This document shows, piece by piece, positions 4,334 to 39,498 of a stretch of 39,896 bases of DNA. This DNA is from Brachyspira innocens ATCC 29796 (GTDB lineage: Bacteria > Spirochaetota > Brachyspiria > Brachyspirales > Brachyspiraceae), in contig NZ_ARQI01000099.1 in NCBI RefSeq assembly GCF_000384655.1, positions 1 through 39,896 on the forward strand, in the 5' to 3' direction. The notes under the pieces were generated by a model. It ran no database searches. It was not told the DNA's origin and was given only the letters and a program-made list of their open reading frames with translations. The translations under genes and the position numbers were made by a program. Position 1 is the first letter of the stretch; every line of letters begins with the position of its first letter.

Positions 4334-4915
4334 ATGACTATACCTTATGTAATAGAGCAAACAAGCAGAGGAGAGCGTTCTTACGATATATATTCAAGGC
4401 TTTTAAAAGATAGAATTATATTTTTGGGCGGAGAGATTAATGATGATGTTGCTAATATAGTTATAGCACAGCTTTTATTTTTGGAATCTGCTGATCCAGA
4501 AAAAGATATTTCTTTATATATAAACAGTCCCGGCGGAGTTGTTACAGCTGCTTTGGGTATGTATGATACTATGCAGTATGTTAAGCCTGATGTTGCTACT
4601 TTATGCGTAGGACAGGCTGCTTCAGCAGGTGCTTTGCTTCTTGCAGGAGGGGCTAAAGGTAAAAGATTTGCTACTGCTAATTCAAGAATAATGATTCACC
4701 AGCCTTCAGGCGGTTCAAGAGGTATGGTTACTGATATGGAAATACAATTAAAAGAAACTATACGCTTGAAAAGCATACTTAATAATATTATGGCTAATCA
4801 TACAGGTCAGGATATTAAAAAACTTGAAGCTGATATGGATAGAGATTATTTTATGAGTGCTGATGAAGCTAAAGAATATGGTATAATAGATAAGGTTTTC
4901 TCTAGCAGAGAATAA
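4334..4915 (+). CDS. clpP: ATP-dependent Clp protease proteolytic subunit
   Basis: Serine peptidase that forms the barrel of the ClpXP/ClpAP protease. The catalytic triad is intact: Ser97 in GQAASAG, His122 in MIHQPSGG and Asp171 in MDRDYF. The segment [23 protein letters not shown] is classical. Three in-frame ATGs are possible: 4280 (overlaps tig and lacks a ribosome site), 4313 (AAAAGGA five bases ahead) and 4334 (GGAGAG seven bases ahead). I chose 4334 because [10 protein letters not shown] then matches the start of short ClpPs such as that of Bacillus, giving 193 residues without a propeptide. 4313 remains possible. Stop and start of tig and clpP are 38 bases apart, so the two are probably co-transcribed. 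Confidence 0.95.
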
Positions 4916-4943
4916 TAATATAATTTTTATTTGAAAAATAATT

Positions 4944-4975
4944 AAACAAGGGGCATATTAAGCCCCTTGTTTTGG
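4944..4975 (+). terminator. Terminator after clpP
   Basis: AAACAAGGGGC (4944-4954) pairs perfectly with GCCCCTTGTTT (4962-4972) around a 7-base loop. The T-run after the stem is short. It separates tig-clpP from clpX, which should then have its own promoter in the 120 AT-rich bases that follow. Confidence 0.75.
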
Positions 4976-5097
4976 ATGCAAGTTTTTATTTTATTATTGA
5001 AATTTATTATTGAAATACTTATATTTTGATATAGAATATATAAACTTAATTATTGATTATATGATAATATATTTTTTAATATATAAATTGGAGAGAT

Positions 5098-6333
5098 ATG
5101 TCTAAAAAAGGTAATGATAAAAAAGAAGTTTGTTCTCTATGCGGAAGAGAATTAAAAGAATTAAGCCGATATATTGAAGGCAATGAAGGATATTTATGTT
5201 CTGATTGTTCTGCTATAGCAAATGACTATTTTAACATGAATGTTCAAAAGAAGAAATCTAAAGAAAAAGATTATGAAATAAAAATACTTCCGCCAAAGCA
5301 GATAAAATCTTTACTTGATGAATATGTTATAGGACAGGATTATGCTAAAAAAGTTTTATCTGTTGCAGTTTATAACCATTATAAAAGAATAACTCAAAGT
5401 GCAGAAGATAAAAATGATGTAGAAATAGAAAAGTCTAATGTACTTTTAATAGGTCCTACAGGAAGCGGTAAAACTTTACTTGCTCGTACTTTAGCTAAGG
5501 CTTTGAATGTGCCTTTTGCTATTGCTGATGCTACTACTGTAACAGAGGCTGGATATGTAGGTGATGATGTTGAAAATATTCTTTTAAGGCTTATACAGAA
5601 TGCTGACGGCGATATAAAATTGGCAGAAAAAGGTATAATATATATTGATGAAATAGATAAAATTTCACGCAAAAGTGAATCCCGTTCTATTACAAGAGAT
5701 GTATCAGGCGAAGGTGTACAGCAGGCATTATTAAAAATTGTGGAAGGTACTGTTGCTACTGTTCCTCCTCATGGCGGAAGAAAACACCCTCATCAGGATA
5801 ATTTGCATATAGATACTTCTAATATACTTTTTATATGCGGCGGGGCTTTTATAGATATAGAAAAATCTATTGCTGAACGTACTTCTAAAAAAGGTTTGGG
5901 TTTTGCCGCTGAAGTTAATTCTATGGATAATCTTAATTATGATGAGATAATGAAAAATATTTCTACAGAAGATTTGGTTAAATATGGGCTTATACCAGAA
6001 CTTATAGGAAGGCTTCCAGTAATAGCCACTTTAGAAGAGTTAAAAGAAGAAGAGCTTTTGCAGATACTAAAAGAGCCTAAAAATGCTTTGACTAAACAGT
6101 ATCAAAAATTATTTTCTTATGACAATATAGAATTAAAAATAGATGATGAGGCATTAAAAGTAATAGTAAAAAAAACTATGGAAGAGCATACAGGAGCAAG
6201 AGGTTTAAGAGCTTTATTTGAACGTGTTATGCTTGATGCTATGTATGATATGCCTACTGATGACAAAGAAAAGAAAGTTTTTGAGCTTGATAAAGAATAT
6301 GTTGAAAGCAGATTAGGTACTGTAAACGAATAA
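5098..6333 (+). CDS. clpX: ATP-dependent Clp protease ATP-binding subunit ClpX
   Basis: Hexameric AAA+ unfoldase that feeds substrates to ClpP. The N-terminal zinc-binding domain has Cys12, Cys15, Cys34 and Cys37. Walker A is GPTGSGKT (119-126), Walker B is [10 protein letters not shown], the pore loop is GYVGDD, and the sensor-2 box is [10 protein letters not shown]. The ClpP-docking loop reads LGF in place of the usual IGF. The length of 411 residues is typical. GGAGAG lies two bases before the ATG-proximal AT, a close but workable ribosome site. It stands downstream of clpP after a terminator, so the two partners may be expressed separately. Confidence 0.97.
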
Positions 6334-33526: not shown

Positions 33527-33865
33527 TTATATATTTTCTTTTAATAAACTTATTATCTCTTCTTTGCTTAACACCTTTCCGTATGAAAGCACTTTATCAT
33601 CTAATACTAAAGCAGGTGTTGACATCACACCATAAGAAGCTATTTCAGCCATATCCTCTACATACTGAACTATCAAATCTAGTTTAGCCTCTTCAATAGC
33701 AGCTATTACATTTTCTTCTAATTTTTGACAGTTAGAGCATCCAGTTCCAAGTATTTTTACTCTGGCTTCTACTGGGGATTCTTTATTTGTTTCCTCTTCA
33801 CCGAAGAGATTGATGGCAGGTCCTCAGCCGCAGCTTCCGCCGAAAAAAAGATCTTTTAATGTCAT
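33527..33865 (-). CDS. Thioredoxin-fold selenoprotein (TGA at codon 14 read as selenocysteine)
   Basis: A 112-residue protein when the in-frame TGA (33824-33826) is read as Sec14: MTLKDLFFGGSCGUGP, then a thioredoxin-like domain with CxxC (GTGCSNCQ, Cys43 and Cys46) and the cis-proline loop GVMSTPALVLDDKVLSYGKVL. It is about 70% identical by eye over the last 75 residues to the Cys paralogue at 34581-34880. AAGGAG lies six bases before the ATG, and no other start codon lies before the CxxC, so translation must pass the TGA. A hairpin with a GGU loop lies at the right distance after it. The N-terminal Cys-Gly-Sec forms a second redox site besides CxxC. Its sisters are next to an ArsP-type permease. 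Partner and substrate are unknown. Confidence 0.87.
33794..33808 (-). other. Bacterial SECIS-like hairpin of the first selenoprotein
   Basis: On the - strand CTCTTC-GGT-GAAGAG forms a perfect six-base stem with a GGU loop; one further U-G pair extends it. The stem begins 15 bases after the TGA, placing the GGU about 21 bases downstream. SelB-binding SECIS elements in bacteria have a G/U-containing apical loop at just this distance. Confidence 0.8.
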
Positions 33866-33880
33866 ATGTTTCTCCTTTTA

Positions 33881-34081
33881 TATATTAAAAATTATTCGCT
33901 TAAAGGCTCTTACCAGAGGCTCATAATTTTTAATTTGCTTATATATTAAAAATTATTCGCTTAAAGGCTCTTATCAGAGGCTCATAATTTTTAATTTGCT
34001 TATATATTAAAAATTATTCGCTTAAAGGCTCTTCCCAGAGGCTCATAATTTTTAATTCGTTTTATATATTAAAAATTATTC
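33881..34081. repeat. Three 61-bp tandem repeats, each an imperfect palindrome
   Basis: Units start at 33881, 33942 and 34003, and a fourth copy of 17 bases starts at 34065. Each unit opens with TATATTAAAAATTAT and has ATAATTTTTAAT near its end, so one unit can fold on itself with CTCT/AGAG at the tip. The units are nearly identical and differ mainly at the tip (TACC, TATC, TCCC). They fill the gap between the two selenoprotein genes and end some 15 bases ahead of the second start codon. Confidence 0.93.
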
Positions 34082-34113
34082 TCTGTAAAACTATTATCAA
34101 AATTTATATATTT

Positions 34114-34428
34114 TTATAATTTTTCTTTTAAAATATTTATTATTGTTTCTTTACTTAATACCTCACCATATGATATAAGCTCATCATTAACAACAAGTGC
34201 AGGCAAAGTCATAACTCCGTAATATGACATACTACCTTTACTGTCTGTAAATTTTATAGATAAATCCAAATCCAAATCTAATATAGCATTTCTTATATTG
34301 CTAAGCATATTTAATGAAGCCTCATCATCATTTCTGCCTAATAATAATATCTTTTCTATTTCTCTTTCCTCATCTTCTAGAGGATCAGGCAAACAGCCTC
34401 AGCCGAATTCTATATTTTTTTTAATCAT
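34114..34428 (-). CDS. Thioredoxin-fold selenoprotein without CxxC (TGA at codon 10)
   Basis: A 104-residue paralogue of the neighbour when the TGA at 34399-34401 is read as Sec10: MIKKNIEFGUGCLPDP. A conventional reading would start only at a TTG (34392) after the TGA, without a ribosome site, and would lose the Sec-Gly-Cys site. The thioredoxin-like domain keeps the strand order and the cis-proline loop GVMTLPALVVNDELISYGEVL, but the usual GTGCSNC is GRNDDEAS, so the CxxC pair is gone. The only redox residues left are Sec10 and Cys12. The ATG at 34428 has a weak ribosome site (AAGGG about 12 bases ahead). A hairpin follows the TGA at the right distance, less typical than that of the sister gene. 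Confidence 0.78.
34367..34384 (-). other. Possible SECIS hairpin of the second selenoprotein
   Basis: On the - strand TCCTC and GAGGA enclose TAGAAGAT; a further T-A pair with one bulged T narrows the loop to AGAAG. The stem begins 14 bases after the TGA. There is a G in the first two loop positions but no GGU, so this is weaker evidence than in the sister gene. Confidence 0.5.
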
Positions 34429-34580: not shown

Positions 34581-34880
34581 TTATTTTACTTTATCTTTTA
34601 ATAAAGCAATAATTTCGTCTTTAGTAAGCACCTTTCCATATGATAATACTTTTTCATCAAGCACCAAAGCAGGAGTTGACATTACACCATAAGAAGCTAT
34701 TTGTGCCATATCCTGTACATGTCCTACACTTAGATCAATACCCATTTCTTTTACAGCTTCTAAAGCATTTTTTTCAAGCTTTTGGCAGTTTGAACAGCCG
34801 CTTCCCAATATTTTAATTCTGGCATTTGATGATTCTCCGCTGCATGAACCTCCGCAGCAGCAATTTTTTTCTGATGACAT
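34581..34880 (-). CDS. Thioredoxin-fold redox protein, cysteine-rich N-terminus
   Basis: A 99-residue protein of the family called redox-active disulfide protein 2 (TM0996-like). The N-terminus is CCCGGSC (Cys7, 8, 9 and 13), the thioredoxin-like CxxC is GSGCSNC (Cys29 and Cys32), and the cis-proline loop is GVMSTPALVLDEKVLSYGKVL. It is the all-cysteine sister of the two selenoproteins downstream. AAGGAG precedes the ATG. It lies 43 bases after the permease gene in the order ArsR-permease-thioredoxin, a grouping often seen for COG0701 permeases. The probable job is to hand thiols or a bound metal(loid) to or from that permease; this is inference from gene order. Confidence 0.88.
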   Translation of the reverse strand: MSSEKNCCCGGSCSGESSNARIKILGSGCSNCQKLEKNALEAVKEMGIDLSVGHVQDMAQIASYGVMSTPALVLDEKVLSYGKVLTKDEIIALLKDKVK

Positions 34881-34923: not shown

Positions 34924-35934
34924 TTATACAAATAGAAAATAAAAATTATTAAATAAATATCCAATAATTATTATTCCTAAAGTTACTATACCCACAAAAA
35001 GAACAAGAAGCTGTATTTTTACTACCTTTTTTATCATAATAATTGATGGAAGTGATAAAGCAGTAACCGCCATCATAAAAGATAAAATAGTTCCTATTCC
35101 AGCACCTTTATAAAATAAACTTTCAGCCACTGGAAGAGTACCGAATATATCTGCATACATCGGTATACCAACTAAAGTTGCCAACGGAACAGAATACCAA
35201 TTATTTTTTCCTAGTACCGTATTTATCCATGCTTCTGGTATAACATTATGTATAAAAGCTCCTATTCCAACTCCTATAAAAATATATAAATAAACTTTTT
35301 TTATAGTCTGCATCACCTGATCTTTTGAGTATATAATTCTATCTTTTTTTGTCATAGACTGTATTTCTACATCTGTATTTGATTTTATATTTTTAACAAA
35401 ATCTTCTAAATATCTCTCCATTTTTAGTTTGCCTAATAATGTACCTCCTGCAACGGCAAGTACAAGCCCTACAATAACATAAGCTATAGCTATTTTCATT
35501 CCAAACACACTTGATAGAAGTATTAAAGAGGCCAAATCTACAAGAGGCGAAGATATTAAAAAAGAAAATGTTATAGAAATAGGTATTCCTGCAGAAGTAA
35601 ATCCTATAAATAAAGGTATTGAAGAGCAAGAACAAAATGGAGTAACCGTTCCAAAAAGTGCTGCTAATATATTTGCTGATATTCCGTTAAATCTGCTTAA
35701 TATTTTTTTGGTTCTCTCTGGAGGAAAATAGCTTTGAATATATGATATACAAAATATGAGTACAGATAAAAGTACAAATATTTTTATAACATCATAAATA
35801 AAAAACTGTATTACTCCTTTCATTGTTTCTGATAGGGCAAAATTATTTAATATATTGCCTATCAATGTATTGAGCCATTTCATTGATATAATTTGATCCT
35901 GTATAAAAATAAATATTGATTTTATAACTGACAT
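34924..35934 (-). CDS. Permease of the ArsP/COG0701 (YraQ) family
   Basis: A 336-residue inner-membrane protein with about eight helices. The conserved cysteine motif is TPFCSCSSIPLF (Cys101 and Cys103), followed by GFTSAGIPISITFSFLISSPLVD; a second half repeats the pattern with VGIPMYADIFGTLPVAESLFYKGAGIGTILSFMMAVTALSLPS. Members of this family export trivalent organoarsenicals (ArsP); others have unknown substrates. The ATG at 35934 has AGGAG ahead; the frame extends to 35988 into the regulator gene without support. An ArsR regulator with a metal-binding CVC sits 16 bases upstream. The substrate is likely a thiol-reactive metal or metalloid, inferred from family and neighbours. Confidence 0.87.
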   Translation of the reverse strand: MSVIKSIFIFIQDQIISMKWLNTLIGNILNNFALSETMKGVIQFFIYDVIKIFVLLSVLIFCISYIQSYFPPERTKKILSRFNGISANILAALFGTVTPFCSCSSIPLFIGFTSAGIPISITFSFLISSPLVDLASLILLSSVFGMKIAIAYVIVGLVLAVAGGTLLGKLKMERYLEDFVKNIKSNTDVEIQSMTKKDRIIYSKDQVMQTIKKVYLYIFIGVGIGAFIHNVIPEAWINTVLGKNNWYSVPLATLVGIPMYADIFGTLPVAESLFYKGAGIGTILSFMMAVTALSLPSIIMIKKVVKIQLLVLFVGIVTLGIIIIGYLFNNFYFLFV

Positions 35935-35950
35935 TTTTATAACTCCTAAT

Positions 35951-36274
35951 TTATTTTTCGCATTTACATTTTGCTGTGCTTTCAGCATTCTTATCTGATA
36001 TTATAGTTGTATAATAGTTTAATAATTTTTCTGCGTTTTTTATTCCTTCTTTATTAAAACTATAATAAGTCCATTTGCCTTCTTTTCTTCCTGCTACTAT
36101 ATTTGAATCGCAAAGTATTTTCATATGATGTGATAATGTAGACTGTACTATATGTAATTCTTCCAAAAGTTTGCATACACATATTTCACCGTCTTTAATC
36201 ATTTCTAATATTTTTAATCTATTCTCATCGCATAGAGCTTTGAATACTATTGCATTATTCTTATAATCCTGCAT
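35951..36274 (-). CDS. ArsR/SmtB-family metal(loid)-responsive repressor
   Basis: A 107-residue winged-helix repressor. ALCDENRLKILEMIKDGEICVCKLLEELHIVQSTLSHHMKIL contains the CVC pair (Cys32 and Cys34) of the alpha-3N-type arsenic/antimony site, and the helix-turn-helix QSTLSHHMKIL. The wing is GRKEGKWTYYSF. The C-terminus has an extra CKCEK that might add a ligand. It should release DNA on binding arsenic or antimony. It is the first gene of the cluster, just after a promoter dotted with ATATCGA sites. Confidence 0.93.
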   Translation of the reverse strand: MQDYKNNAIVFKALCDENRLKILEMIKDGEICVCKLLEELHIVQSTLSHHMKILCDSNIVAGRKEGKWTYYSFNKEGIKNAEKLLNYYTTIISDKNAESTAKCKCEK

Positions 36275-38253: not shown

Positions 38254-39498
38254 TTATTTGTTTATAGTACGCATGTCTATTACATATCTGAATTTTACCT
38301 TTCCGTCTATAACTTTTCTGTATGCTTCTTTTATAGTTTGGGCATCTGCTTTTATTATTTCTACACTAGGATAAATATTATTTTCTATAGAATAGTTAAG
38401 CATTTCCTGAGTTTCTTTTATTCCGCCTATTAAAGAGCCGAATAATTTTTTACTGCCATGTTGCCCTATCATAGCTGTAAGTGTAGGCATTTTTGAAGTT
38501 CTAGGAAGCCCTAATAAACACATAGTACCTCCTCTTTTAAGCATACGCATATACATGTTAACATCATAGTATGCTGGTATGGTACTTATTATATAATTAA
38601 GAGTATTATTAACATTTTTTAAATCTTCTGCATTATTTACATTAACATATTTTACTGCTCCCATATTTAAAGCGTCTTCTCTCTTATCTTCTGTTATGTC
38701 AAAAACAGTAACTTCAGCACCCAGTTTTACAGCATATTTTACTGCCATAGATCCAAGTCCTCCGAATCCTGCAATGCCTATTTTTTCTCCCTTTTTTACA
38801 TTCATAGCTTTTATAGGCGAATAAGTGGTTATGCCTGCACAAAGAAGCGGAGCAACCTTATCAAGTTCTGCATTATCTGGTATAAGTATTGCAAAGTTTT
38901 CAGACACTACTATGTTGTCAGAGTATCCGCCTTGAGTTATCTCATTGCCATGAAATCTATCTCTTGAGCCGTAAGTATAAACTGCTCTATTTAAACAGTA
39001 CTGTTCTAAATTATCCAAGCAGCTTTCACATTGTCCGCATGAGTTCACCATGCATCCTACACCAGCAAAATCACCAACCTTAAATTTTGTTACTTTACTT
39101 CCAACTTGTACAACTCTTCCTGCTATTTCATGTCCTACTACAATCGGAGTGCTGCTTGATTTACCTTCAACAACATGTATATCACTATGGCATATTCCAG
39201 CATAAAGTATTTCTATTAGTACGTCATTATCTCCTACCGCATGCCTTGTAAACTCATGATATTTAAAATCCATATTGGCTGAAACTGCTGCAAAGCCTCT
39301 TGATTTTATTCTTCCATTTGCATTGGTTTGTATATTAATAGGGGCTTTTTTAAGATTCTGATTATACATTGCATTTGAAGAATTATTTTGTAAAGCATTA
39401 TTATTTTCTGTATTTATGCTTGTTTGAGCATTTGATGAATTATTGCATGACATTATAAATAATATTGATAGTATAGTTATTAATATAGATTTTTTCAT
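38254..39498 (-). CDS. Zinc alcohol dehydrogenase with lipoprotein signal peptide
   Basis: A 414-residue medium-chain zinc dehydrogenase of the YahK/cinnamyl-alcohol type. Zinc ligands include GICHSD (Cys103) and GHE (His123-Glu124); CGQCESCLDNLEQYC is the structural zinc site; GFGGLGSMAVKYAV is the cofactor-binding fold. It differs from a normal cytoplasmic enzyme by about 65 extra N-terminal residues: a lipoprotein signal ending in FIMS-Cys18, then an Asn/Ser-rich linker. AAGGAG lies eight bases before the first ATG, so this start is real. The enzyme is likely lipid-anchored on the outside of the inner membrane or on the outer membrane, where free NADP(H) is not available; its electron partner is a puzzle. 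Confidence 0.9.
   Translation of the reverse strand: MKKSILITILSILFIMSCNNSSNAQTSINTENNNALQNNSSNAMYNQNLKKAPINIQTNANGRIKSRGFAAVSANMDFKYHEFTRHAVGDNDVLIEILYAGICHSDIHVVEGKSSSTPIVVGHEIAGRVVQVGSKVTKFKVGDFAGVGCMVNSCGQCESCLDNLEQYCLNRAVYTYGSRDRFHGNEITQGGYSDNIVVSENFAILIPDNAELDKVAPLLCAGITTYSPIKAMNVKKGEKIGIAGFGGLGSMAVKYAVKLGAEVTVFDITEDKREDALNMGAVKYVNVNNAEDLKNVNNTLNYIISTIPAYYDVNMYMRMLKRGGTMCLLGLPRTSKMPTLTAMIGQHGSKKLFGSLIGGIKETQEMLNYSIENNIYPSVEIIKADAQTIKEAYRKVIDGKVKFRYVIDMRTINK

Follow-up and report, generated by a model that had tools for sequence, protein, structure and literature searches.

The stretch of DNA analysed here, hereafter the window, comprises 39,896 nucleotides of Brachyspira innocens ATCC 29796 (contig NZ_ARQI01000099.1). 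Its minus strand carries, in the direction of reading, a gene for an ArsR-type metalloregulator, a gene for an ArsP_1-family permease, a cysteine-containing thioredoxin-like gene, two further thioredoxin-like genes that we call by their published names Sec.1 and Sec.2, and a gene for a pfkB-type kinase (Table 1). The longest ORF for the permease begins inside the arsR gene. The frames of Sec.1 and Sec.2 each contain one in-frame TGA, and the first-pass annotation, which was made from the letters alone and placed these codons at positions 14 and 10 of two minus-strand genes, was correct to the codon. Profile searches matched Sec.1, Sec.2 and the intact cysteine paralogue to PF13192 (Thioredoxin_3) and to TIGR00412 (MTH895/ArsE). 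Sec.2 and the Cys paralogue scored above the curated cut-off of TIGR00412; Sec.1 scored below it, and the CxxC motif is absent from this protein.

Table 1. Positions of the thioredoxin-like genes, their TGA codons and hairpins, and the neighbouring ars-type genes in the window
Feature	Positions	Strand	Description
Sec.2, predicted selenoprotein gene	33527-33865	-	112 codons; MTH895/ArsE-type thioredoxin, predicted Sec at residue 14 in N-terminal tail, CSNC intact
Predicted Sec codon of Sec.2 (TGA)	33824-33826	-	codon 14, context GGSCG-U-GP
Candidate SECIS hairpin of Sec.2	33793-33809	-	UCUCUUC-GGU-GAAGAGG (DNA: TCTCTTC-GGT-GAAGAGG)
Sec.1, predicted selenoprotein gene	34114-34428	-	104 codons; thioredoxin fold without CxxC, predicted Sec at residue 10
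Predicted Sec codon of Sec.1 (TGA)	34399-34401	-	codon 10, context EFG-U-GC, motif FGUGCxPDP
Candidate SECIS hairpin of Sec.1	34367-34384	-	UCCUC-loop-GAGGA (DNA: TCCTC-TAGAAGAT-GAGGA)
Cys paralogue	34581-34880	-	NCCCGGSCSGE tail, CSNC motif; predicted to contain Sec in four further genomes of the genus
ArsP_1-family permease (PF03773)	34924-35988	-	below SaoE and SO_0444 cut-offs
ArsR/SmtB-type metalloregulator	35951-36274	-	CVC motif within EICVCKLL stretch

The ATG of Sec.2 is preceded by AAGGAG, the strong ribosome site that had been noted for this gene, and no start codon lies shortly 3′ of its TGA. The ribosome site of Sec.1 is weak in B. innocens ATCC 29796, with GGAGG at the same place in many relatives, and a TTG located 3′ of the TGA opens an ordinary 92-aa ORF. 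These two points on Sec.1 are small corrections to the first-pass annotation. This TTG is replaced by TTA or TCT in 8 of the 19 distinct sequences, so re-initiation at this codon is not conserved. The gap between the two genes is filled by a 61-base tandem repeat (3.4 copies, 94% match; 33878-34089), which has just partial, weak matches elsewhere in the genome; the gap is shorter in two close relatives (L049 and L050).

Selenocysteine machinery, conserved TGA codons and downstream hairpins

The B. innocens ATCC 29796 genome is rated 100% complete and consists of 130 contigs. All of the sel genes that the first-pass annotation had named as a check were found in it, namely selB (290 bits, above the cut-off), selA (450 bits), selD (354 bits) and a tRNA-Sec gene with the anticodon TCA; selB, selA and the tRNA-Sec gene lie on one contig, within 4 kb. 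The tRNA-Sec model matched in 26/26 Brachyspira genomes, in 25 of them above the Rfam cut-off. In two Brachyspira genomes (G006 and G021), tRNA-Sec is present and no member of the MTH895/ArsE-type thioredoxin family was seen.

We read the cluster at 23 more loci from Brachyspira, and the counts that follow cover the genomes holding each gene, the window included. Codon 10 of Sec.1 is TGA in 23/23 genomes and codon 14 of Sec.2 is TGA in 22/22; TAA, TAG or a Cys codon was found at neither position in these 23 and 22 genomes. The exchange between TGA and Cys that had been suggested as a check is therefore absent from these two codons and occurs at the third paralogue, as described below. The frames beyond the TGA are under purifying selection, with pN/pS values of 0.28 for Sec.1 (22 sequences) and 0.22 for Sec.2 (21 sequences). 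Sec.2 of the closely related Brachyspira sp. G79 is 96% identical. The frames are intact in relatives save one, B. alvinipulli ATCC 51933, in which Sec.2 is frameshifted near its 3′ end (L068, 4007-4162) and the third paralogue has the Sec form; owing to this frameshift, Sec.2 may be dispensable in that species.

Both candidate hairpins start 14 bases 3′ of the TGA, in agreement with the first-pass description, as is the GGU loop of Sec.2. The Sec.1 region folds more strongly than shuffled sequences (z -2.8), and 93% of the cells of its stem are paired across 15 distinct sequences, compared with 42-66% for slid stems. Both sides have changed at two pairs of this stem (five cells versus 1.7 in shuffles), a compensatory count equalled in 1/500 shuffles; in L062, Ser replaces Pro on one side and Ser replaces Gly on the other, with the stem retained. 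The Sec.1 loop has no G in its first two positions. The 54-nt fold of Sec.2 is no stronger than shuffles (z 0.1), and an apical hairpin as good as that of Sec.2, with a G early in the loop, occurs at just 1.8% of the coding positions of the window. The Sec.2 apex, UUC-GGU or GUU-GAA, is retained across the genus, and related apices are carried by the third paralogue where it has the Sec form (CCUUC-AGUU-GAAGG) and by the only thioredoxin gene of L070 (ACUUC-GGGU-GAAGU). Fold strength and covariation support the Sec.1 hairpin as a SECIS element, and the conserved apex and the rarity of such hairpins support that of Sec.2; SelB would presumably recognize both.

Because of the sel genes, the constant TGA, the purifying selection, the compensatory changes in Sec.1 and the TGA/Cys exchange at the third paralogue, we are highly confident that Sec.1 and Sec.2 are true selenoproteins. 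The first-pass annotation had drawn the same conclusion and had assigned both to a thioredoxin-fold family, and it was right on both counts; the refuting conditions that it had named all turned out otherwise, with sel genes present, no TAA or TAG at the codon and, save for the one frameshifted Sec.2, intact frames. SelB and tRNA-Sec would decode the UGA as selenocysteine, aided by the hairpin 14 bases downstream. The constancy of the TGA, the pN/pS values and the unbroken frames led us to reject a pseudogene or frameshift reading. That the TGAs are true stops, leaving pseudogenes or proteins initiated at a codon 3′ of the TGA, is very improbable: such stops would fit the 92-aa ORF of Sec.1 and the NCBI annotations, which miss or truncate both genes (PMC5330540), but not a codon that is never TAA or TAG in 22-23 genomes, the selection on the frame beyond it, the loss of the Sec.1 TTG in 8/19 distinct sequences or the want of a nearby start in Sec.2, whereas an ATG comes after each of the real stops that precede thioredoxin genes in six further spirochaetes.

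The published pair, the third paralogue and relatives outside the genus

The Sec.1/Sec.2 selenoprotein pair is already known. Santesmasses et al. 2017 (PMC5330540, Fig 7) described "Sec.1", "Sec.2" and a Cys gene as a cluster present in all Brachyspira genomes examined, and a 2026 review lists 'Thioredoxin-like selenoprotein Sec.1' and 'Sec.2' under PF13192 (PMC13188914); the core of our finding is therefore not new. The published genes and those described here agree in genus, in the three-gene cluster, in PF13192, in the selenocysteine within a short N-terminal extension, in the loss of CXXC from Sec.1 and in a bacterial SECIS after each TGA, and the window shows the published pattern, in which two Sec genes accompany a single Cys gene and one member lacks CXXC. 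The suggestion of the first-pass annotation that a permease-linked Sec pair might be undescribed was thus mistaken for the pair itself; what the text of PMC5330540 lacks is only the link to the permease and the arsenic operon, as it contains none of the words 'arsen', 'arsR' or 'transporter'. Beyond that text, our analysis adds the arsenic-operon company (arsR, acr3 and arsP), a selenocysteine-containing third paralogue and an apparent confinement to Brachyspira within the phylum, which together are a modest addition. It also indicates that reading the raw sequence can recover true selenoproteins overlooked by gene calling, and it confirms a published, little-studied family.

The 2017 study stated that one Cys and two Sec genes occur in all genomes. 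However, we found the third gene in a Sec form (SSCGU) in four genomes, namely L063, L065 (B. pilosicoli PC5538III-hc), L068 (B. alvinipulli ATCC 51933) and L069, and in a Cys form, as in the window, in 14 others; it is missing in some Brachyspira genomes, and one further locus (L070) holds one thioredoxin only, in the Sec form. In the alignment, the Cys forms have a Cys of their Cys-rich tail at the place of the Sec residue. The Sec rows of the third paralogue do not form one group on the protein tree, which implies at least two changes on a tree in which many forks are weak. Such exchange between Cys and Sec among paralogues of one genus offers a usable series on when selenium pays off.

Relatives outside the genus were found with short peptide patterns over genome contigs, and the statements on them refer to the matches listed. 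Among these matches, the nearest thioredoxin relatives belong to Peptoniphilus, Lachnospiraceae, other Bacillota and one uncultured member of the Spirochaetales; they adjoin arsP and mostly arsR, and the order arsR-arsP-thioredoxin occurs in Brachyspira, in Bacillota and in this uncultured member of the Spirochaetales. The acr3 gene follows the thioredoxin gene in three of the listed Bacillota. Several of the listed relatives have a Cys-rich tail (CCCGCGC, CCCNGAC or CCCGGK) at the position of the Sec tail, and none of those read outside Brachyspira has a TGA there, all being Cys or plain forms. A TGA-based pattern search over 393 Spirochaetota genomes likewise returned the Sec form from Brachyspira only, so within Spirochaetota this form is apparently limited to the genus. 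The six other Spirochaetota matches to the TGA pattern were rejected, because they are ordinary stops upstream of the ATG of the gene itself, for which a clear ribosome site is mostly present.

Arsenic-operon context and possible function

In 13/23 Brachyspira clusters, acr3 lies between arsR and arsP, and several of the others are incomplete at their ends. The product was confirmed as an ACR3 arsenite efflux transporter by TIGR00832 above the cut-off in the two clusters tested (368 bits in L070 versus a cut-off of 283). At the level of the genus, the cluster thus combines an ArsR-type repressor with an acr3 efflux gene, as an arsenic resistance operon does. In the genome of the window, neither acr3 nor the ArsC families PF03960 and PF01451 were found, so that the arsR, permease and thioredoxin part alone remains there. 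In L049, whose genome is close to that of the window, a frame change close to the C-terminus divides acr3 in two (4591-5647); as the gene is split there and missing altogether in the window genome, it may be decaying in the clade of the two. The permease reached no named transporter model at its cut-off, and its best named matches were SaoE (organometal) and SO_0444 (Cu/Zn). Given these scores, an arsenic role is argued from gene company, and because the cluster forms the tail of an arsR-(acr3)-arsP operon, it likely serves in the detoxification of a soft metalloid, probably arsenic. Campylobacter ArsP is an exporter of trivalent organoarsenicals (review PMC6205960). Among the papers listed by our literature search on Brachyspira with arsenic or arsanilic acid, none dealt with arsenic resistance in Brachyspira.

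Three known systems resemble the cluster. The MTH895/ArsE family (TIGR00412) shares its fold with the proteins described here and includes Sec.2 and the Cys paralogue above its cut-off; however, the selenocysteine lies in an added N-terminal tail, and Sec.1 scores under the cut-off and is devoid of CxxC. The AlphaFold models predict the thioredoxin domain with confidence, and MTH895 (1ilo) is the solved fold closest to them; the low-confidence tail that bears the Sec in Sec.1 and Sec.2 is probably disordered. The same thioredoxin family (redox-active disulfide protein 2) was reported within ars operons in 2010 (PMC2963123); in contrast to the present cluster, those operons contain CcdA, a thioredoxin and usually arsC, and Sec forms are not described for them. 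The Sec-assisted organometal (Sao) system, cited in the 2026 review (PMC13188914), couples the selenothioredoxin SaoT with the transporter SaoE. Sao likewise joins a selenocysteine-containing thioredoxin-like protein to a related efflux permease, but in the present cluster the selenocysteine sits in the tail and not at the thioredoxin motif. Membership in Sao was rejected, since the matches to SaoT (13-15 of 65 bits) and SaoE (101 of 325 bits) are far below the cut-offs; we saw no further gene of the Sao type next to the cluster.

From the gene order, we suggest that arsR-(acr3)-arsP and the thioredoxin genes are co-transcribed, with the thioredoxins at the tail. Most likely, the thioredoxins cooperate with the ArsP-type permease to detoxify a soft metalloid, which is probably arsenic in its trivalent state, organic or inorganic. 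The Sec or Cys tail would bind or reduce the arsenical, the selenol acting as a high-affinity nucleophile or ligand, and the thioredoxin domain of Sec.2 and of the Cys form would then reload the tail or hand the ligand to the permease. Sec.1, without CxxC, might serve through its tail alone, as a binding or partner subunit. Judged from sequence, an arsenic role of the Sec.1/Sec.2 cluster has about an even chance. We propose only tentatively the fuller model, in which an ordinary arsR-acr3-arsP-thioredoxin operon has been made selenium-dependent, with up to three selenol-tailed copies, one of them tail-only, that bind or reduce arsenicals. If this is true, selenium status would set the arsenical tolerance of Brachyspira gut spirochaetes.

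Two other functions have to be weighed, both of which we consider unlikely. The operon might handle another soft metal or metalloid, such as selenium, antimony, mercury or copper, with the Sec tail as the metal ligand or chaperone of the permease. The below-cut-off resemblance of the permease to SaoE and SO_0444, the Cys-rich tails of several relatives (CCCGGSC and CCCGCGC among them) and the retention of the tail, and not of CxxC, by Sec.1 would all fit such a role, but the acr3 gene in the cluster suggests arsenite. Alternatively, the selenoproteins might have a general redox role, in peroxide or disulfide defence in an anaerobe, and the permease neighbourhood would be historical. The recurrence of arsR, arsP and the thioredoxin gene together across phyla, with acr3 in 13/23 Brachyspira clusters and in three Bacillota, speaks against this possibility, even though the 2017 authors noted the redox-enzyme company of the family (PMC5330540), the window's genome lacks acr3 and the two arsenate reductase families searched, and Sec.1 and Sec.2 stay together even where the permease is 2-3 kb away. 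For the arsenic role or another of this kind, the operon context gives a family named for its fold a testable class of substrates, arsenicals or other soft metalloids.

Elsewhere in the window, a zinc-type alcohol dehydrogenase-like frame (38254-39498) starts with a signal that resembles those of lipoproteins (MKKSILITILSILFIMSCNN), together with a spacer rich in Ser and Asn; such a signal is unusual for a zinc-type alcohol dehydrogenase, which is normally a cytosolic enzyme.
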